This document shows, piece after piece, positions 1 through 10,158 of a stretch of DNA of 37,953 nt. The notes under the pieces were generated by a model. That model was not told the origin of the DNA and did no database searches. It was given only the letters and a program-made list of their open reading frames with translations. The DNA lies in NCBI GenBank assembly GCA_014803415.1, contig JAAVBZ010000008.1:1-37953 (forward strand). Reading direction: 5' to 3'. The stretch's first letter is position 1, and every line of letters starts with the position of its first letter. This DNA is from Lachnospiraceae bacterium (GTDB lineage: Bacteria; Bacillota; Clostridia; Lachnospirales; Lachnospiraceae). The position numbers were made by a program, and so were the translations under genes.

Positions 1-1884
1 CTAGAAAAACAGAAGGAAAGTACAGAAAAGTACTTTGAGTCATTAATAAAATCCATAGAGGGTTCCAAGGATAAATATCAGGAACTTCTTGATATCGTGG
101 ATAAAGCTGAATTATCAGGCAAACTGAAAAAGTTAGGCATTGATGAAGAAGCTTTGCTCAATGGTTCTGAGGAAGAATTTGAAAAGCTCAAAAATGCATA
201 TCTGAATGTAGTATTCCAGTTAAATGAAGGAAACGAAGAATTTCTTTCAAGCTTAAGAGATTTATCCGGATATGAAGGTAATGCTCCTGTTGTCTTGTCC
301 GATACAGCAGAAAAACTGGATGAAATGAATACCCAGTTGGACGATTCTACTCAGAGCATGGACAAACTCTCTGATTCAGCCACAACTGCAAGTGAAGGCA
401 CTTCTGCTGTTGCCGAAAATATGGGCGAACTAAACACCAATACAGAAGGTTTATCTGAGAACCTGACCTCTATCAATGATGCGCTTAATGGTTTACCCGA
501 AACAGACAAATTAGAACATCTTGCCACTTCATTTACTGAACTTGGTAAAGCAATCAAAGATGTAGCAGATAAGCTTGGAATCGGTGAAGATGGCGCAGTA
601 AGTACTCTCGTCACAGCATTACAGGAGATCAGTACATTGTCATTAGATGGTACAGATGGCGAAGGTGTCATAACACAATTTCAGAATCTTAAAACTGCCA
701 TTGAAGATGTGACCAGTGCTATTAGTGGCGGTGGTTCATCCGGTGGCCAAGAAGGTGATGCATCTGGTTCATCAAGTCCAAGCATGAGTTCCGGTGCTGG
801 CGGTGATGAAGGCGCGAGTGGCCTTTTAGATGCTATTGAAGAAATCAAAACTACTACTGATGAATCATTAGGTGGTGGAGAAGGCGAAGACTCTGAGGGT
901 GAAGGTTCTGGTGCAATACCACAATTCCATGAATTGCAAGCTGCCGTTGATGATGTAACTGCTGCTATTGGCAGTGAAGAATCAGAAGGTGAAGAGGGAG
1001 AAAATACCCTAATAGGCGCGTTACGTGCACAATATGAAACAGCCTCCGAAGTATTACCTGAGACAAAAGCATTATTTGAAGAACTTTTAGAATCAATCAT
1101 GGCATGTGTTGGTGCATTAAACAGCATGGTAGGTTTGATAGGTTCTATGTCTGAAATTGGTGTGGGAGGTGGTGTAGGTATTCCCACACATGCCAAAGGT
1201 ACTGTTGGAAATGCTTTTGCTGATGGAACCCATTATAAAGGTCTTCCGCATGATGAAAAGAATGCTCTAGTATCTGAGTATGGTCAGACTGAAATGACTG
1301 TACTTCCAAATGGCAAAACAATTATCACTGATGAGCCTACTATGATGGATCTGCCGAAAGATACTGTTATCTATAATGAAAAGCAAGCTAAGAAGATCAT
1401 GGATAATAAGGTAGATGCTAGTGGTAACGCTCATGCTGGCGGTACAGTTGGGAAAGATAGCCAAGTATCGCAGTCAAATCCTTATGGGCTAAGTGAATTT
1501 GATTTAAAACTGACAAAAGCATTGAGAGAAATCGATGGTTGGATTACTTTACCCGATGGTCAAATGGCACGCCCTTTACGTGAAGGTGATCAAGGGTGGG
1601 ATATGCTCCAGAAATTTAATACATACATGAGCAGCATAGATAATAATGTAGAAAAACTTTCTTATAATATAATGCACGAACAAAGTAAACACATGCATGA
1701 TGCTATAAATCAGATAAATAACGGTAATATTGTGAATAACAACAGGAATGTTCAGCCTATAGTGAATCAAAATGTTACAATAAGTTGCCCTAATGTCACA
1801 AATAATTCTGGTGTAGAGAATATACAAAAACAATTAGGACATTTGAGTCAAAGGGCAGAGCAAGTGACATTAAGAGATTATTGA
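1..1884 (+). CDS. Phage tail tape-measure protein, C-terminal part (5' end outside window)
   Basis: The frame is open from base 1, so the gene starts upstream and about 627 codons are visible. The product is read as the distal part of a siphophage-type tape-measure protein, which sets tail length and sits in the tail tube. Support: a long helical region rich in Asp, Glu, Ser and Thr; repeated blocks ending in QFxxLxxAxxDVTxAI at about 664-726 and 910-969 (82 codons apart), separated by Gly/Ser/Glu-rich linkers; then a Gly-rich patch with AKGTVGNAFADGTHYKG-type sequence (about 1190-1250), which is common near the C-terminus of Clostridia prophage tape-measure proteins; and an Asn-rich tail. 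A GTG at 97 is only an internal start. The family call rests on composition and the C-terminal signature, not on a catalytic motif. Confidence 0.7.
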   Translation, partial: LEKQKESTEKYFESLIKSIEGSKDKYQELLDIVDKAELSGKLKKLGIDEEALLNGSEEEFEKLKNAYLNVVFQLNEGNEEFLSSLRDLSGYEGNAPVVLSDTAEKLDEMNTQLDDSTQSMDKLSDSATTASEGTSAVAENMGELNTNTEGLSENLTSINDALNGLPETDKLEHLATSFTELGKAIKDVADKLGIGEDGAVSTLVTALQEISTLSLDGTDGEGVITQFQNLKTAIEDVTSAISGGGSSGGQEGDASGSSSPSMSSGAGGDEGASGLLDAIEEIKTTTDESLGGGEGEDSEGEGSGAIPQFHELQAAVDDVTAAIGSEESEGEEGENTLIGALRAQYETASEVLPETKALFEELLESIMACVGALNSMVGLIGSMSEIGVGGGVGIPTHAKGTVGNAFADGTHYKGLPHDEKNALVSEYGQTEMTVLPNGKTIITDEPTMMDLPKDTVIYNEKQAKKIMDNKVDASGNAHAGGTVGKDSQVSQSNPYGLSEFDLKLTKALREIDGWITLPDGQMARPLREGDQGWDMLQKFNTYMSSIDNNVEKLSYNIMHEQSKHMHDAINQINNGNIVNNNRNVQPIVNQNVTISCPNVTNNSGVENIQKQLGHLSQRAEQVTLRDY

Positions 1885-1898
1885 TTGATGAAATCATT

Positions 1899-1926
1899 AC
1901 CGCACTCTGAAATATGGGTGCGGTTT
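1899..1926 (+). terminator. Short hairpin after the tape-measure gene
   Basis: ACCGCAC (1899-1905) pairs perfectly with GTGCGGT (1918-1924), followed by a short TT-rich tail. It lies between the tape-measure stop and the next ribosome site. The T-run is weak, so it may be a leaky terminator or an mRNA-end hairpin. Confidence 0.4.
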
Positions 1927-1942
1927 ATATATGGAGGAATAT

Positions 1943-2236
1943 ATGGATTTAGGCGAAGAAATATTAAAGACAATACAGATTATGATTAACAGAAAACTTA
2001 GGAATTACAGAGCAGACCGCACTTATAAGAGTATCATAAGAAATATTACATCTAAAGGTTATGTTATCATAGATGATGCAGGTAGTGAAAGGACTGTACA
2101 GTGTGTTATTCCGGGTATTACTTTAAGGATTGGTCAGAGTGTCTATGTAAAAGAACCGTGTGGAAAATTGAACGATCTTCATATCTGCGGTGTGATTGAG
2201 AACACAAGTAATTCAAACAGGAGCAGAAGAAGATAA
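1943..2236 (+). CDS. Small phage tail-module protein, probable beta-barrel fold
   Basis: A 97-aa protein. An upstream in-frame ATG at 1931 exists, but GGAGG at 1933-1937 sits 5 bases before the ATG at 1943, so 1943 is the better start. The N-terminal 25 residues look helical (LGEEILKTIQIMINRKL). The rest alternates short beta strands with Gly turns and ends in a LNDLHICGVI-type strand followed by an Arg/Ser-rich tail. This pattern (helix, OB-like barrel, final strand ending in CG) is seen in unnamed small proteins of Firmicutes phage tail modules. I cannot assign a function. Its place directly after the tape-measure gene supports a structural role. Confidence 0.6.
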   Translation: MDLGEEILKTIQIMINRKLRNYRADRTYKSIIRNITSKGYVIIDDAGSERTVQCVIPGITLRIGQSVYVKEPCGKLNDLHICGVIENTSNSNRSRRR

Positions 2237-2372
2237 TTTTGAATTTTAAAGTAAATAATGTAACTATAAACAAAGTTGATTGAACATGATTTGATTCCCA
2301 CAATTTTGGGAAGATATGTTCCTTATAATAGTAGAGAGAATAATTTGAAAATTGAATATAGATATGATTTCA

Positions 2373-2406
2373 GGGTGCTGTTGATTGATTAAACAGTGCC
2401 CTTTTT
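2373..2406 (+). terminator. Rho-independent terminator closing the tail module
   Basis: GGGTGCTGTT (2373-2382) pairs with AACAGTGCCC (2392-2401) using two G-T wobbles, followed directly by TTTTT. It separates the structural genes from the recombinase unit. It ends 14 bases before the first ATG of the next gene. Confidence 0.7.
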
Positions 2407-2419
2407 AAATATATTTTAG

Positions 2420-2689
2420 ATGAAAGGAACTGATTATATCAATACAGTTACACAGATTAAAACGAAAAATTATAACCAACATATTTCTTTTATGGTTAAT
2501 AAATCATATTTTACTGAATATATTAGTAGTGATTCTTCTTCAAGTGAGGAACCATGTGTGAAAGATGAGCTAATAAATATTTTACAGGACGATGAAACGA
2601 CTGTTATTAAGTATTTATTGGATATTATGCGTGTGCATGATATAATTACAGAAGAAGAATATCAAGCAGTTTTATACAAATATAATTAA
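2420..2689 (+). CDS. Unknown 89-aa protein upstream of the serine recombinase
   Basis: An acidic protein of at most 89 aa whose stop lies 13 bases before the recombinase ATG, so the two are probably co-transcribed. No clear ribosome site precedes the ATG at 2420, so the true start may be further in, for example at an internal Met. The C-terminal half is rich in hydrophobic and charged helix (NILQDDETTVIKYLLDIM, then EEEYQAVLYKY) and resembles a small helical adaptor. I do not recognise a named family. Small proteins encoded next to large serine recombinases are sometimes their directionality factors, so that role is possible but is inferred only from position and size. Confidence 0.5.
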   Translation: MKGTDYINTVTQIKTKNYNQHISFMVNKSYFTEYISSDSSSSEEPCVKDELINILQDDETTVIKYLLDIMRVHDIITEEEYQAVLYKYN

Positions 2690-2702
2690 GGGGTGCGGAT
2701 AA

Positions 2703-4295
2703 ATGGAAGAGAAGAAATTAAGAGCCGTATTCTATGCAAGAGTAAGTACTGAGGAAGAAGAACAGTTAAATGCAATAGAGAAACAAATTGAAGAGAATCG
2801 AGATGTTATCAGTGCTAAGGATTGGATTTTAGTTGATGAATATATAGATAAGGGGATAACCGGTACACAAACAAAGAAAAGAAATGAATATATGAGAATG
2901 CTCGATGACATTAGAAAAGATAAGTTTGATATTATTGTAGTAAAGGATCAGTCACGTCTGCAGCGTAATACTATGGATTGGTACATTTTCCTGAATGAGA
3001 TTGTACAGAATCAGAAGAAATTATATCTATATTTGGAGAATACATTCTTCGATTCAAAGGATAAATTCATATTTGGCATTAAAGCAATGATGGCAGAAGA
3101 ATATAGCCGGGATTTAAGTAAAAAAGGTAATGCTGCGAAGAAAAGAAGGCAGGAAAAGGGCAAGCCGATTATTACAAATCGTACATGGGGATTCAAAAAT
3201 ATCAATGGTGAAATATTGGTAGATGAGGAGGAAGCAATACTTGTAAAACGTATATATCAACTTTTCGCTGATGGTTTTGGTGGACGTGTAGTTGCGAGAA
3301 TCTTACGTGATGAAGGTATAAGAAATAGAAATGGTAAGACATTATCTGAAAATACGATACGTGATATTGTAAAAAATCCGCTTTATAAAGGTATTGCGGT
3401 AATGAATAAAGAACATTTTGATTTTGAAGCAAAGAAGATTATTAAGAATCCTGAAAGTGAATGGATATACAGAGAAGGGATTGTACCGCAGATAGTCAGT
3501 GATGATTTGTGGGAAAGAGCCAATATACAGATAAGCAGCAGAAAAACCATAGACAGAACACATAATGTAGGGATTAATAAAGGAAATACGCTTCTATCGT
3601 CTAAAATAATTTGTGGTGAATGTGGTTCAAAGTATTGGAGAAATAAAAGAGCACAAGGAATCTATTGGTATTGTAGTGAAGGCGCACGCTCTGGAAAGGT
3701 CAGAGAAAATACAGGAATGAAGTGTGCTTCACTGAATCTGAAAGAAGATGAAGTGTTATCTCTGATAGAACATTTGGGAAATCAGTTGATTGCCAAAGAA
3801 AAGAAAGAAGAAGTATTGAGCAATGCAATCAGAAAAATCTATGCAGGATTATCTAATTCAAACAGTGAAGATAATTTAGAAGAAATTCAGACACAAAAGG
3901 ATAAGCTGAATAAAAGAAAAGATGCTCTTATGGATTTATTATTAGATGGAACGATTGCGAAAACTGATTATTCAATCAAAATGAATGATATTACAAAGCA
4001 AATTGCATTGTTGAATGAGAAAGAAATTAGGATACAGGAAAAGAAAGAAGAAAATGGTGAATTGTTTGATCGTTTGAATAAGGTGAGAACATTATTTCAG
4101 AGTAAGACAGAAAAGGGAATAGAAGTTCCTTTGATGTGTTCTCATATTGAACAGATTAAAGTCTATGAAAAAAGATTAGACGTGTATCTTGATTTCTTGA
4201 AGAATACGGATTTGTTATCAATAAAATGCGATAAAAATAAGTACAAAAACGTTTTAGATATGCCCATTTGTGTGGGTAGAAAGTTATCCGGATGA
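2703..4295 (+). CDS. Large serine recombinase (phage integrase)
   Basis: 530 aa, the usual length for large serine integrases. AAGGGGTG precedes the ATG. The resolvase domain covers about residues 7-150, with the catalytic Ser15 in YARVST and the Arg-rich DQSRLQRN segment. The recombinase domain follows (about 165-275, with RVVARILRDEGI). A zinc ribbon has Cys near 304, 307, 323 and 341 (ICGECGSKYW then YWYCSEG). A long Lys/Glu coiled coil (about 370-450) then leads to the C-terminal helix. It catalyses attP x attB strand exchange for the prophage. The last codons overlap sequence encoding host polysaccharide deacetylase, so the 3' end of this gene crosses the attachment junction and its final residues are set by the host site. 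Confidence 0.93.
   Translation: MEEKKLRAVFYARVSTEEEEQLNAIEKQIEENRDVISAKDWILVDEYIDKGITGTQTKKRNEYMRMLDDIRKDKFDIIVVKDQSRLQRNTMDWYIFLNEIVQNQKKLYLYLENTFFDSKDKFIFGIKAMMAEEYSRDLSKKGNAAKKRRQEKGKPIITNRTWGFKNINGEILVDEEEAILVKRIYQLFADGFGGRVVARILRDEGIRNRNGKTLSENTIRDIVKNPLYKGIAVMNKEHFDFEAKKIIKNPESEWIYREGIVPQIVSDDLWERANIQISSRKTIDRTHNVGINKGNTLLSSKIICGECGSKYWRNKRAQGIYWYCSEGARSGKVRENTGMKCASLNLKEDEVLSLIEHLGNQLIAKEKKEEVLSNAIRKIYAGLSNSNSEDNLEEIQTQKDKLNKRKDALMDLLLDGTIAKTDYSIKMNDITKQIALLNEKEIRIQEKKEENGELFDRLNKVRTLFQSKTEKGIEVPLMCSHIEQIKVYEKRLDVYLDFLKNTDLLSIKCDKNKYKNVLDMPICVGRKLSG
4245..4290. other. Prophage/chromosome junction (probable attR)
   Basis: Up to about 4255 the sequence encodes only the recombinase, and a TAG at 4255-4257 closes the deacetylase frame. 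From about 4267-4273 the other frame reads WVESYPDDVK, the conserved middle of a NodB deacetylase. The crossover must therefore lie in or just before GTGTGGG (4270-4276). The exact core dinucleotide cannot be placed without the left end. Confidence 0.7.
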
Positions 4296-4770
4296 TGTGA
4301 AGGCAATCCTTGCCGCAGGTCACGATCTTGGAAATCACAGCGAGAATCATAAAAATATGAGCCAGCTTTCTGATGAAGAGAAAAAAGAAGAGCTGATGCA
4401 GGTGCATCAAAAAGTACAGGAGCTGACCGGGTATGAAATGTACCTGTTTCGTCCGCCCTACGGGGATTATGACAATGCGGTGGTAAAAGTGGCAAAAGAT
4501 TGCGGATATTATCCAATACAGTGGGATGTGGATTCTCTGGACTGGAAAGATTATGGTGTGGATTCCATTATCAAAACAGTAACAGAGCATAAGCATCTTG
4601 GAAACGGATCCATCATTTTGTGCCATAACGGAGCTAAATATACAGCGCAGGCATTGGATACTTTGATCACCAAATTGGAAAAACAGGGTTATACTATCGT
4701 TCCTGTTTCAGAATTGATCTATAAAGATAAATATCACCTGAATCATGAAGGTCGCCAGATCTCAAATTAG
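4258..4770 (+). pseudogene. Polysaccharide deacetylase (NodB), C-terminal half, split by the prophage
   Basis: About 167 residues of a NodB/CE4 domain without its N-terminal half. Visible motifs are the metal-binding GNHSENH (motif 2), RPPYGDYDN (motif 3), a VDSLDW segment, and SIILCHN near the end (motif 5). The TFDD catalytic-base motif and the signal or membrane anchor expected in the first half are missing, because the prophage interrupts the gene. The first usable start is a GTG at 4270 without a ribosome site, so the fragment is probably not translated alone. The family removes N-acetyl groups from peptidoglycan or related glycans; spore-former members resemble PdaA/PdaB. Precise excision could restore the gene. 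Confidence 0.85.
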
Positions 4771-6684: not shown

Positions 6685-6844
6685 AATAAAACACATTATT
6701 TAATTCTTGTATCGTTCAAGATACATTTTCATTATACTTTTTATACCGTAAGTTTATTGCCATAGAAGTTCCTGCATACTATAATAATAAAGTCGGTTTT
6801 ACTATCCTGATTTGTGTCCGCAGACGCGGATGGAGGTGATATTT

Positions 6845-9043
6845 ATGCGAATTTTACTTTTACTGAGAGGATCTGCCGGATGCGGCAAATCCACATGGAT
6901 TGAAGAGAATAACTTAAAAAGATATGCGTTGTCGGCAGATGATATCCGCCTGCTCTGTCAGAGTCCTGTTATGCTGGTGGATGGAACAGTGGGGATCAGC
7001 CAGAGCAACGACAAGGCAGTGTGGAAAATGCTGTTTAGCCTGCTTGAGATAAGAATGCAGAACGGAGAGTTCACGGTGATCGATGCCACCAACTCCAAAA
7101 CCGCTGAGATAAATCGATATAAACAAATGTGCGAAACCTATCGGTACAGAATGTATTGCGTTGATTTTACAGACATTCCTATTGATGAAGTTAAGAGAAG
7201 AAATATGTGCAGGGAACCGTTTAAGAGGGTTCCTGAGGAAGTAATTGACCGGATGTATTCCCGATTTGCAACCCAGAAGATCCCTTCCGGTGTCAAGGTG
7301 ATAGGGCCTGACGAATTGAACAGTATCTGGCTAAAAAGGATCGACCTGTCCGGTTATAGGCGGATTCATCATATCGGTGATGTTCACGGATGCAATACTG
7401 CTCTGCAGAAATATTTTGCTGATAATGGCGGTATAAAGGACGATGAATTTTATATATTTGTGGGAGACTATGTAGACCGAGGCATAGAAAACGTTGAGGT
7501 TCTTAATTTCTTGATCTCCATTAAAGACAGGAAAAACGTGCTGATGCTGGAGGGCAATCACGAAAGATGGCTGTGGCTGTATGCGAATGACTGTGTGGGC
7601 AGATCCAAAGAATTTGAGCTGGTGACCAGACCTGCTCTTGATGAGGCCCATATGGACAAGAAAGAACTTCGTCAGTTGTATCGGAAGTTTGGCCAATGTG
7701 CTTATTATACATATGGGGATCAGGTCTTTCTCGTTACCCATGCCGGTCTTAGTACGATTCCCGAAAATTTGTCTTTTGTAGCAACAGAACAGATGATCAA
7801 AGGTGTGGGAAATTACAACGATTTCGAAGAAATTGCTGAGACCTTTTACAAAACCACACCGGATAATTATATTCAGATTCACGGACACAGAAATACCAAG
7901 CAGCTTCCTGTAATGGTCAATGACAGGGTATATAACCTGGAGGGCCAGGTGGAATTTGGCGGGTTCTTGCGGTGTGTACAGGTTGACAGAGAGGGGATCC
8001 ATACCGTGGAGATCAAAAACGAGGTATTTAAGACTCCGGAAATGCAGCAGGAACAGACTGTGACCAGCAGTTCTATTGCAGATACGATCATTGCTCTGCG
8101 TGCTAATAGATATATACAAGAAAAGAAATTTGGGAATATTTCTTCTTTCAATTTTACCAGCAAGGCATTTTACGACAAGGTATGGGATGAACAGACCACC
8201 AAGGCGAGAGGTTTGTATCTGGATACGGTGAAGGGAAAAGTAGCCGCCAGAGCTTATGATAAATTTTTCAATGTCAATGAGCGTCCGGAGACCAAGTTTG
8301 ATCTGTTACAGCATAGATTACAGTTCCCTGTTACGGCCTATGTTAAGGAAAACGGCTTTTTAGGAATTGTCAGCTACGATGAATATGAAGATGATCTGTT
8401 TATTGCCACCAAATCCACCATCAACAGTCAGTTTACCGGCTGGTTCAAGAATATGCTGTATGAAAAAATATCTCCCGAAAACCTGACTGCAATGAAGGAT
8501 TTTGTTCGGGACAATCAGGTATCCTTTGTTTTTGAATGTGTGGATATGAAAAATGATCCTCATATTATTGAATATCCTGAAAACGGTCTGTACCTGCTTG
8601 ATATTGTGTATAATCAGATGGACTTTGCAAAGTTTGGTTATGATGAGATGTGCCATGTAGCAAACAAGTTGGGACTGACTCCCAAGGAAAAGGCTTTTGA
8701 GATTGCGTCCTGGCAGGAATTTTACGATTGGTACTATGACGTGCTGGAGGAAGATTATGAATACGAAGGCCGGAAGATAGAAGGCTTTGTCATTGAGGAT
8801 AGTGCCGGATATATGACAAAGCTTAAGCTGGCATATTATAATTTCTGGAAATTTATGCGTGGCGTAGCCCATGAGACCATTCGGAAGGGGCACATATCCA
8901 GAACATCCACCCTGACCACGCCTATTGCCAATGAGTTTTATGCGTGGGCAAAAAAGCTGCATGATGTGGAGAATCTGGAAAGTGTTCCAAGGGATATCTG
9001 TACGCTCCGAACCATGTTTTATCAGGACAAATTTATAATTTGA
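6845..9043 (+). CDS. Three-domain RNA repair enzyme: 5' kinase, metallophosphatase, Rnl1-like ligase
   Basis: 732 aa. GGAGGTGAT at 6832-6840 fixes the ATG at 6845; earlier in-frame TTG and GTG codons lack such a site. Domain 1 (about 1-165) is a T4 Pnk-like P-loop kinase: GSAGCGKST (9-17), SADDIR (30-35), and a VKRRN...VPEEVIDRMY tail. Domain 2 (about 170-380) is a calcineurin-type phosphatase: D179xH181, GDYVDRG near 206, GNHE with N238 and H239, THAG and HGHR. Domain 3 (about 440-732) is a nucleotidyltransferase ligase: KENG with Lys501, a FECVD motif, EGFVIED near 646 and KLKL near 660. The order matches bacterial Pnkp, but the ligase resembles T4 Rnl1 and no Hen1 methyltransferase gene is adjacent. 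Predicted role: healing and sealing of broken RNA, such as cleaved tRNA. It appears monocistronic, between a hairpin and a terminator. Confidence 0.88.
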   Translation: MRILLLLRGSAGCGKSTWIEENNLKRYALSADDIRLLCQSPVMLVDGTVGISQSNDKAVWKMLFSLLEIRMQNGEFTVIDATNSKTAEINRYKQMCETYRYRMYCVDFTDIPIDEVKRRNMCREPFKRVPEEVIDRMYSRFATQKIPSGVKVIGPDELNSIWLKRIDLSGYRRIHHIGDVHGCNTALQKYFADNGGIKDDEFYIFVGDYVDRGIENVEVLNFLISIKDRKNVLMLEGNHERWLWLYANDCVGRSKEFELVTRPALDEAHMDKKELRQLYRKFGQCAYYTYGDQVFLVTHAGLSTIPENLSFVATEQMIKGVGNYNDFEEIAETFYKTTPDNYIQIHGHRNTKQLPVMVNDRVYNLEGQVEFGGFLRCVQVDREGIHTVEIKNEVFKTPEMQQEQTVTSSSIADTIIALRANRYIQEKKFGNISSFNFTSKAFYDKVWDEQTTKARGLYLDTVKGKVAARAYDKFFNVNERPETKFDLLQHRLQFPVTAYVKENGFLGIVSYDEYEDDLFIATKSTINSQFTGWFKNMLYEKISPENLTAMKDFVRDNQVSFVFECVDMKNDPHIIEYPENGLYLLDIVYNQMDFAKFGYDEMCHVANKLGLTPKEKAFEIASWQEFYDWYYDVLEEDYEYEGRKIEGFVIEDSAGYMTKLKLAYYNFWKFMRGVAHETIRKGHISRTSTLTTPIANEFYAWAKKLHDVENLESVPRDICTLRTMFYQDKFII

Positions 9044-9248: not shown

Positions 9249-9276
9249 AAAATTGGTTCATCAAAGGAGGACGAAA

Positions 9277-10158
9277 ATGACAGAAACATATGTGCAACGC
9301 AATTATAAGGACACCATGTTCCGTATGCTGTTTAAGGAAAAAGAAAATCTTCTGAGCCTTTACAATGCAGTCTATATGAATTATAAGAATGATATTTCCT
9401 TCGTGTTTGATTTTGAACTGATGCTTTATGAGCACCAGTCTACAGTAAATCCTAATATGCCGCTGAGGGATTTGTTTTATGTTACAAAGGTACTACAGAA
9501 TATCACAAGAAGTGAAACCCTGTACAGTTCAGTGCTACTCAAACTTCCGGCTCCAAGATTTGTGGTTTTTTACAATGGAACTGATCCTCAACCAGGAGAA
9601 CAGATCTTGCGGTTGTCGGATGCATTTGAAAAGAGGATGGAAAAGCCGGAACTGGAATTGGTGGTGAAAGTGTACAATATCAATTCGGGTTATAATCCGG
9701 AACTGATGGAGGCATGTTGCCTATTAAAGGAATATGCACAGTATGTGGAACAGGTCAGGAGATTTGCTAAAAAGCTGCCGTTTCAGGAGGCGGTGGAACA
9801 GGCGGTTGATCATTGCATCAGGAATGGTGTGCTGGCGGATTTCCTGTTAAAAAATCGGGCGGAGGCGATAGCAGTGAGTATTTTTGAGTATGATGAAGAA
9901 AAGCATCTTAAGAGCGAAAGAGATCTTGCATACAAAAACGGGGAAGAAGTTGGAATTGCAAAGGGCAGAACAATTAAATTAATTAAACAGATCTGTAAAA
10001 AAATAGAAAAGGGCCAAGGTCCGGAGAAAATAGCGGAGGAATTAGAGGAAGAGCTGGAAACCGTAATGCCCATTTATGAATTGGCTGCCGCATCTTCTCC
10101 GGAATATGATAATGAAAAGATATATAAAGAACTGCAGGACAGGTATGCCGGTGACTAA
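9277..10158 (+). CDS. Rpn-family PD-(D/E)XK nuclease / transposase-like protein
   Basis: 293 aa. AAAGGAGG at 9263-9270 fixes the ATG at 9277; the in-frame GTG at 9253 has no such site. The N-terminal half carries the family hallmarks: NYKDTMFRMLF, NDISFVFDFEL and LYEHQSTVNPNMPLR, where the Asp and ExQ residues form the nuclease core. A helical Lys/Glu-rich C-terminus follows (about 215-270). Rpn proteins are DNA endonucleases tied to recombination and, in recent reports, phage defence. Compared with the usual family order, about 18-20 residues appear to be missing between LYNA and VYMN, where homologues carry a segment such as NGT...LENA. The deletion is in frame. Activity is therefore uncertain. 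Confidence 0.75.
   Translation: MTETYVQRNYKDTMFRMLFKEKENLLSLYNAVYMNYKNDISFVFDFELMLYEHQSTVNPNMPLRDLFYVTKVLQNITRSETLYSSVLLKLPAPRFVVFYNGTDPQPGEQILRLSDAFEKRMEKPELELVVKVYNINSGYNPELMEACCLLKEYAQYVEQVRRFAKKLPFQEAVEQAVDHCIRNGVLADFLLKNRAEAIAVSIFEYDEEKHLKSERDLAYKNGEEVGIAKGRTIKLIKQICKKIEKGQGPEKIAEELEEELETVMPIYELAAASSPEYDNEKIYKELQDRYAGD

Follow-up and report, generated by a model that had tools for sequence, protein, structure and literature searches.

A stretch of 37,953 nucleotides from a Lachnospiraceae bacterium (contig JAAVBZ010000008.1 of assembly GCA_014803415.1; hereafter the window) carries on its forward strand, at 6845..9043, a gene for a protein of 732 amino acids (plus stop) that joins a kinase, a metallophosphatase and an Rnl1/Trl1-type ligase. 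This trifunctional protein is a host-resident member of a known phage and bacterial family, a variant of bacterial RNA repair enzymes, and it is probably a single-chain RNA end-healing and sealing enzyme that repairs RNA (most likely tRNA) after cleavage by ribotoxins or anticodon nucleases. RNA cleaved to leave a 2',3'-cyclic phosphate and a 5'-OH would have its ends healed and then sealed. The substrate would be tRNA or another translation RNA cut by metal-independent ribonucleases, and the cutting agents could be anticodon nucleases, toxins, or contact or colicin-like ribotoxins. In phages, the family would counter host defence, in some cases alongside RlaP and Thg1, which would restore lost nucleotides; in the bacterial group of the window it would now be a host gene, mostly without adjoining partners, that guards the RNA of the cell itself. 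We infer the three activities, the tRNA substrate and the protective role.

Domain organization and kinship

The three Pfam domains of the protein all score above their curated cut-offs. The predicted 5'-OH polynucleotide kinase domain lies at 6854..7270 (residues 4-142; AAA_33, PF13671, 7.1e-17) and is followed by a calcineurin-type phosphatase, a presumed 2',3'-cyclic phosphodiesterase, at 7361..7900 (residues 173-352; Metallophos, PF00149, 1.1e-15). The ligase half at 8078..9040 (residues 412-732; PF09511) has profile matches to Trl1-type ligases and to T4 Rnl1, and consists of an adenylyltransferase core at 8201-8839 (residues 453-665; RNA_lig_T4_1, E 5.3e-43 to 2.6e-42) and, after ligase motif V, a short C-terminal region at 8840..9040 (residues 666-732) with the conserved basic residues K669 and R672. 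An earlier note on this DNA had described kinase, phosphatase and ligase in one chain of 732 amino acids. This observation of the domain architecture is real, and the residues named there (K15, D179, H181, N238, H239, and K501 in KENG) all occur at those positions; the interpretation built on it is partly supported.

We aligned the protein with relatives from 37 of 53 related loci, L034-L086 (alignment A1, 38 rows; it excludes L056, L058 and L086, the partial loci L061-L064, and nine viral loci that were near-duplicates or otherwise not needed, namely L067, L068, L070, L073, L075, L076, L079, L081 and L083). The P-loop lysine K15 (6887-6889) and the nucleotidyl lysine K501 (8345-8347) are identical in 38 of 38 rows, as are D179, D208, D211, R212, N238, H239, H299 and H348. 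The phosphatase residues on the window protein are D179, H181, D208, N238, H239, H299 and H348; at position 181 the alignment has histidine in 35 rows and glutamine in three. Ligase motifs I, IV and V are in place: in addition to K501, E646, K659 and K661 are present in all 36 rows with letters there. A longer version of the reading frame begins upstream at TTG 6812 and would give 743 amino acids. We take ATG 6845 as the start because GGAGG precedes it and M1 and R2 are nearly invariant (at least 90%) in the same alignment.

The healing half resembles that of the Clostridium thermocellum-type Pnkp (TIGR04075/TIGR04074), with a kinase followed by a calcineurin-type phosphatase, and the two are homologous by sequence. 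Using blastp, residues 4-379 align with the Pnkp of locus L100 (3.6e-17) and residues 4-302 with that of L099 (2.0e-16); in these comparisons the kinase and phosphatase align and the ligase has no significant alignment. TIGR04075 scores 71.4 bits over residues 4-304, far below its whole-protein cut-off of 750. The ligase, by contrast, belongs to another family. Among the families listed at E ≤ 1, the Pnkp ligase family PF16542 is absent for the window protein and for the 31 members of the three-domain family in set A2, whereas L099, a Hen1-adjacent Pnkp used as positive control, matches it at 2.9e-175. A profile of the ligase found none of five Pnkps, and no Pnkp chain in the Protein Data Bank (PDB) at E ≤ 10. 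The five Pnkps are also longer (829-860 amino acids), and all five fetched Pnkp genes adjoin an annotated Hen1.

The earlier claim that Hen1 is missing held up when the genome was surveyed. PF12623 (Hen1) has no match in the genome of the window, which is 97.4% complete with a contamination estimate of 9%, and it was positive in one of 14 control genomes; TIGR04074 has two matches in the genome of the window, both far below cut-off. Nor is there a Hen1 homologue at E ≤ 1 among the 1013 open reading frames (ORFs) of the 54 neighbourhoods formed by the window and the 53 related loci. A standard Pnkp with a hidden Hen1 was therefore rejected, on the ligase family and on both the genome and neighbourhood searches. 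Pnkp is the known bacterial one-chain healing and sealing enzyme, and it depends on Hen1: an insertion domain blocks its ligase as long as Hen1 has not opened it (PMC4411300). The Capnocytophaga Pnkp1-Rnl-Hen1 complex likewise brings together kinase, phosphatase and ligase for ribotoxin-cut RNA, but it comprises three proteins including Hen1, all of which were needed for repair in vitro, and its phosphatase resembles that of T4 Pnk and is of another superfamily (PMC4411300). A Hen1-free one-chain enzyme found in phages and host chromosomes would offer an uncomplicated system in which to study the contest between host and virus over cut tRNA.

PF09511 scores 147.9 bits on the window protein (cut-off 28.3) and matches all 31 A2 members. 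Searching all PDB sequences with the ligase profile at E ≤ 10 found eight chains, five named 'tRNA ligase' and three of T4 Rnl1, with the former (E 2.9e-26 to 1.1e-16) ahead of the latter (6.4e-10 to 5.9e-9). We take the five 'tRNA ligase' chains to be fungal Trl1. The numbering of one of them, 6n0v, fits the Chaetomium Trl1 (ctTrl1) of PMC6592678. Queried with the single sequence of T4 Rnl1, the search returns T4 Rnl1 and nothing else. The description of the ligase as Rnl1-type in the earlier note is thus right at family level (PF09511, not PF16542), but as judged by sequence Trl1-like is the closer description, since the closest solved ligases are of Trl1 type and not T4 Rnl1.

The kinship is less clear beyond the core. 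The T4 Rnl1 matches end at profile position 254 of 317, no match to T4 Rnl1 lies outside the adenylyltransferase core, and the 67 residues that follow the core of the window protein show, at the level of sequence, no C-terminal domain of T4 Rnl1 type. The whole-ligase alignment reaches profile position 316 on 9qw7. A profile of the C-terminal region alone, however, retrieves no Trl1 at E ≤ 10, its best hit being a mitoribosomal protein (E 0.31), so that kinship of this region to Trl1 is not established, and we do not claim that it is a homologue of the all-helical LIG-C domain of Trl1.

In ctTrl1, N150, H227, R334 and R337 hold an active-site sulfate, and alanine scanning is reported to show that H227 and R337 are essential (PMC6592678). 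By a manual count along the alignments, the four residues correspond to N503, H573, K669 and R672 of the window protein, the last two depending on the alignment just past motif V. Among 46 rows, which we also used for a quick tree, N503, H573 and R672 are conserved in all and K669 in 45, with one arginine (the rows leave out L059, L060, L068, L073, L086, L061-L064, L067, L070, L075, L076, L079 and L083, and the phage and plasmid rows carry long-branch warnings). T4 Rnl1 has isoleucine at the position of the pocket histidine, and its match ends before the basic pair. The Rnl1-type ligase of Escherichia phage Bas59 does have the histidine, which is therefore not peculiar to Trl1-like ligases.

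The resemblance to fungal Trl1 comprises the nearest solved ligase domain, three activities in one chain and the conserved sulfate-pocket residues. The arrangement differs: yeast Trl1 has its ligase at the N terminus, its kinase in the centre and a 2H phosphodiesterase (PMC6592678, PMC5434554, PMC3400036), whereas the window protein has the kinase first, Metallophos in the middle and the ligase last, with no 2H phosphodiesterase. T4 Pnk (pseT) and Rnl1 (rnlA) would be expected to perform the same chemistry, with a ligase of the same Pfam family, but they are separate proteins and the phosphatase is of the DxDxT type (PMC3400036). Phage Bas59 (EduardKellenberger; locus L104) encodes the same three kinds of domain, a kinase, a metallophosphoesterase and a PF09511 ligase, in neighbouring genes; there they are three separate small proteins, and the ligase gene is on the strand opposite the other two. 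An annotated sirtuin gene lies two genes downstream of that ligase.

The family in phages, plasmids and chromosomes

The window protein matches the phrog_8238 model, 'RNA ligase', along its full length (residues 1-728 on model positions 1-732 of 737; 734.2 bits; 2.9e-220). In tblastn searches, 366 phage records match, 113 of them with one place covering at least 80% of the query, as do 36 plasmid records, 11 with that coverage. The best phage matches listed are SPbeta-like Bacillus phages (about 48% identity), an Alicyclobacillus phage (44.5%) and Twort-like Staphylococcus phages (37-39%), and many of the phage and plasmid records listed are annotated 'RNA ligase'. The full-length model match and these annotated homologues make the three-domain layout a known sequence family. 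The pairing of a Pnkp layout with an Rnl1-type ligase, which the earlier note had put forward, is real, but the layout is that of the established family phrog_8238. The window copy is homologous to the phage members over its full length and differs from them in being chromosomal and in having no repair partner adjoining it. No biochemical study of the three-domain family turned up in the literature searched, which left out most subscription journals. A catalogue of RNA repair systems by Burroughs and Aravind (2016) may describe this fusion, so we claim no priority for it.

In viral contigs, the ligase gene may have company. RlaP lies near it in L069, L072, L073, L074 and L080 and Thg1 in L065 and L072-L076, so that one or both occur at eight of 22 viral-contig loci, in five distinct contexts and at most 4.6 kb away within the fetched stretch (the names are Pfam-confirmed on the L072 proteins only). 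In L072 and L073, the RlaP and ligase genes share about 10 bases. The predicted task of RlaP is to put back missing nucleotides ahead of ligation, and phage ATP-grasp RNA ligases that occur with RlaP are viewed as tRNA repair against host RNases (PMC7824862). Chromosomal copies have varied host-gene neighbours with no partner common to all; one of them, L050, has an RtcB ligase gene 455 bases away.

The chromosomal copies look like working host genes, because they are under purifying selection, mostly resemble their flanks in GC content and share no partner. The ratio of non-synonymous to synonymous substitution rates (dN/dS) was compared for 17 pairs; one is saturated and the other 16 give 0.034-0.156. 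Fourteen of the pairs consist of chromosomal copies alone, and the 13 of these with finite values span the same range. Over a range of about 0.36 to 0.59, the GC content of the gene is within 0.03 of that of its flanks at most of 29 loci; it is lower by 0.07-0.11 in L039, L047 and L049 and higher in L036 (by 0.06) and in the phage locus L072 (by 0.05). Several sets of chromosomal copies occupy shared positions (L045/L046/L054/L056, L047/L049, L042/L043 and L044/L058). On the quick tree, the window copy falls in a chromosomal clade of five genomes with an SH-aLRT value of 100, inside a larger clade of 22 chromosome-labelled and four viral-contig rows. The label 'chromosome' requires six changes on this tree, which is compatible with repeated movement between phages and hosts, and some rows so labelled (L041, L052 and L055) look phage-like.

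Repair partners and alternative roles

We also examined whether genomes that carry the ligase gene encode RlaP and KptA. The carriers were collected by a DNA-pattern scan that started from the window protein, a set biased to close relatives that includes several not labelled Lachnospiraceae (L051, L052, L055, L057 and others); the background is 397 genomes of the family including the window's own, 299 of which were checked for the ligase. RlaP is present in 12 of 27 carriers (11 of 26 over the cut-off plus the window's own genome) against 49 of 396 background genomes (p 8.8e-5), and KptA in 11 of 27 (10 of 26 plus the window's own) against 62 of 396 (Fisher p 0.0025). The carrier RlaP of G352 is the copy in L052, a phage-like stretch. 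With G341, G351, G352, G355 and G357 removed, each protein is found in 11 of 22 carriers (p 3e-4 for KptA, 4e-5 for RlaP). Counted by carrier clade, in our own grouping with a half-or-more rule that corrects for shared ancestry only in part, RlaP is found in 5 of 9 (p 0.002) and KptA in 5 of 9 (p 0.007); in the clade of the window itself, only 2 of 5 genomes have RlaP. Independently of the ligase, KptA and RlaP co-occur in 23 of 396 background genomes (expected 7.7; p 1.8e-8), and the carriers G344 and G358 have both on the same contig, at distances of about 5 and 7 kb.

The genome of the window encodes KptA on contig C43 (162 bits) and a tandem RlaP pair on contig C20 beside a large helicase. 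The earlier note had supposed the ligase protein to be self-sufficient, a conjecture to be set beside the presence of RlaP and KptA in the same genome. The first RlaP of the pair is homologous to the phage RlaP of L072 (4e-75), and the second to the nucleotidyltransferase in second place in an Asticcacaulis row of Hen1, Pnkp, RlaP and RlaP genes (3e-45). The pair (locus L091; G000 C20: 8979-13810) stands directly 5' of the gene for the helicase, a protein of 1009 amino acids with similarity to the PADLOC models MkoA/MkoC (about 1e-34), and pair and helicase are possibly a separate RNA repair or defence unit.

Several observations weigh against a tRNA repair enzyme that protects its host. The full-length gene occurs in one of 299 family genomes and two of 37 genus genomes, a sporadic distribution that argues against a core function. 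Matches at E ≤ 0.001 are found in 50 of the 299, most in the phosphatase region only; among these, the window's own genome is the only one with the full length, G143 matching residues 1-110 and 329-395 and G052 residues 4-303. At 14 of the 22 viral loci, neither RlaP nor Thg1 is present in the fetched stretch. No tRNA-cutting toxin is shown beside the window gene, AAA_13 (the PrrC/RloC-type ATPase) has no match over cut-off in the genome of the window, and PADLOC has no model for the ligase protein at E ≤ 0.001. Many values of dS exceed 1 and the dN/dS pairs are not independent, and the correction for shared ancestry applied to the RlaP and KptA enrichments is crude.

The enzyme could instead serve an RNA purpose in which tRNA is not the main substrate, such as circularisation of mRNA or small RNA, repair of rRNA fragments, or a phage accessory function like that of T4 Rnl1. 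The shortness of the C-terminal region and the early end of the T4 Rnl1 matches would fit this, as the C-terminal domain of T4 Rnl1 confers tRNA specificity (PMC6592678). However, the Thg1 and RlaP contexts point to tRNA ends and Trl1, to which the closest solved ligases belong, is a tRNA ligase; for these reasons we favour tRNA as the substrate and consider another purpose unlikely. It is very unlikely, in our judgement, that the window copy is prophage or other mobile cargo that does nothing for its host, a phage anti-defence gene that happened to become trapped in the chromosome. The many phage homologues, the sporadic distribution, the resemblance of the left end of the window to a prophage end, the low GC of the gene in L039, L047 and L049, and 3' flanking stretches that L039 and L040 share by eye with the phage-like copies L041 and L069 all speak for cargo. 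However, the gene stands outside the prophage end, past a polysaccharide deacetylase piece and a Na+/H+ antiporter gene, and the chromosomal copies are under purifying selection, mostly match the GC of their flanks and, in several sets of genomes, have been retained at the same position.

The kinship to Trl1 raises the question of a yeast-like route, in which the ligase would accept or require 3'-OH/2'-PO4 ends and leave a junction 2'-phosphate for KptA/Tpt1 to remove, so that KptA would gain a native substrate. This is consistent with the ranking of the solved ligases, the conserved sulfate-pocket residues, and the presence of KptA in the genome of the window and its higher frequency among carriers. 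Glutamine also replaces H181 in three of 46 members (L057, L095 and L098), and the same DxH-to-DxQ change in the phosphatase active site is seen in L059 and L060. Changing the equivalent residue of C. thermocellum Pnkp, H189, reportedly gives 2'-PO4 ends that are sealed by yeast ligase. The window protein, however, keeps H181, which by the same reported work would make it a phosphomonoesterase leaving a 2',3'-diol; its retention suggests a diol end and a T4-like route. Moreover, the only Q-type carrier genome tested (G357, with L057) has no KptA match, nor do 16 of the 27 carriers; the C-terminal region alone finds no Trl1; lysine stands in place of R334; and the pocket histidine of the Bas59 ligase slightly lowered the weight we give this route. 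KptA may also obtain 2'-phosphate from elsewhere, for instance from RNA ends processed by 2H phosphoesterases, after which it is discussed as an RNA repair enzyme (PMC9503650), and as regards KptA only its link with a Trl1-like ligase is new here. We rate the yeast-like route as very unlikely for the window protein and give equally little credence to its general form, in which bacteria and phages would hold a yeast-like trifunctional tRNA ligase that seals 2'-phosphate ends, itself or at least in its DxQ variants, and leaves a KptA/Tpt1 substrate. If it were true, ligase, KptA and RlaP would constitute an RNA repair network, and this would help to explain the spread of Tpt1 in bacteria with no known yeast-like ligase. 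That spread is described as a longstanding conundrum, E. coli having no yeast-like ligase that makes internal 2'-PO4 (PMC6333775). A bacterial ligase nearest to Trl1, with a conserved pocket and over-representation of KptA, makes the Tpt1 question directly testable, and the DxQ members would be the best test cases.

Features around the gene

A probable prophage end occupies the start of the contig (window positions 97-4770). It includes an ORF at 97-1884 with a weak tape-measure match (phrog_4197, 0.0024) and a large serine integrase at 2703-4295 (phrog_95, 7.7e-100). The frame of the C-terminal part of a polysaccharide deacetylase overlaps the 3' end of the integrase, which suggests integration into the deacetylase gene. 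PADLOC, run on seven window proteins, gave no defence signal adjoining the ligase gene, and a weak match of SduA to a response-regulator-like window ORF was judged to be chance. Just 3' of the ligase gene, the ORF at 9253-10158 (301 amino acids) looks by eye like an Rpn/PD-(D/E)XK protein; nothing in Pfam matches it at 0.01, and from PHROG there is only a weak match to a transposase (0.0084).

The ligase gene has a candidate promoter of its own, TTGCCA-17-TATAAT, at 6757..6785 on the same strand. Its -10 region, CATACTATAAT, recurs upstream of the gene in the four nearest relatives, exactly in L035, L036 and L037 and with one mismatch in L034, and was the only upstream conserved element found by eye, in the window and these four. 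Promoter-like sites in the region number eight, against a mean of 7.6 in shuffled sequence, and so are not above expectation. Downstream of the gene, a palindrome-like stretch can be seen by eye in L039, L040, L041 and L069.

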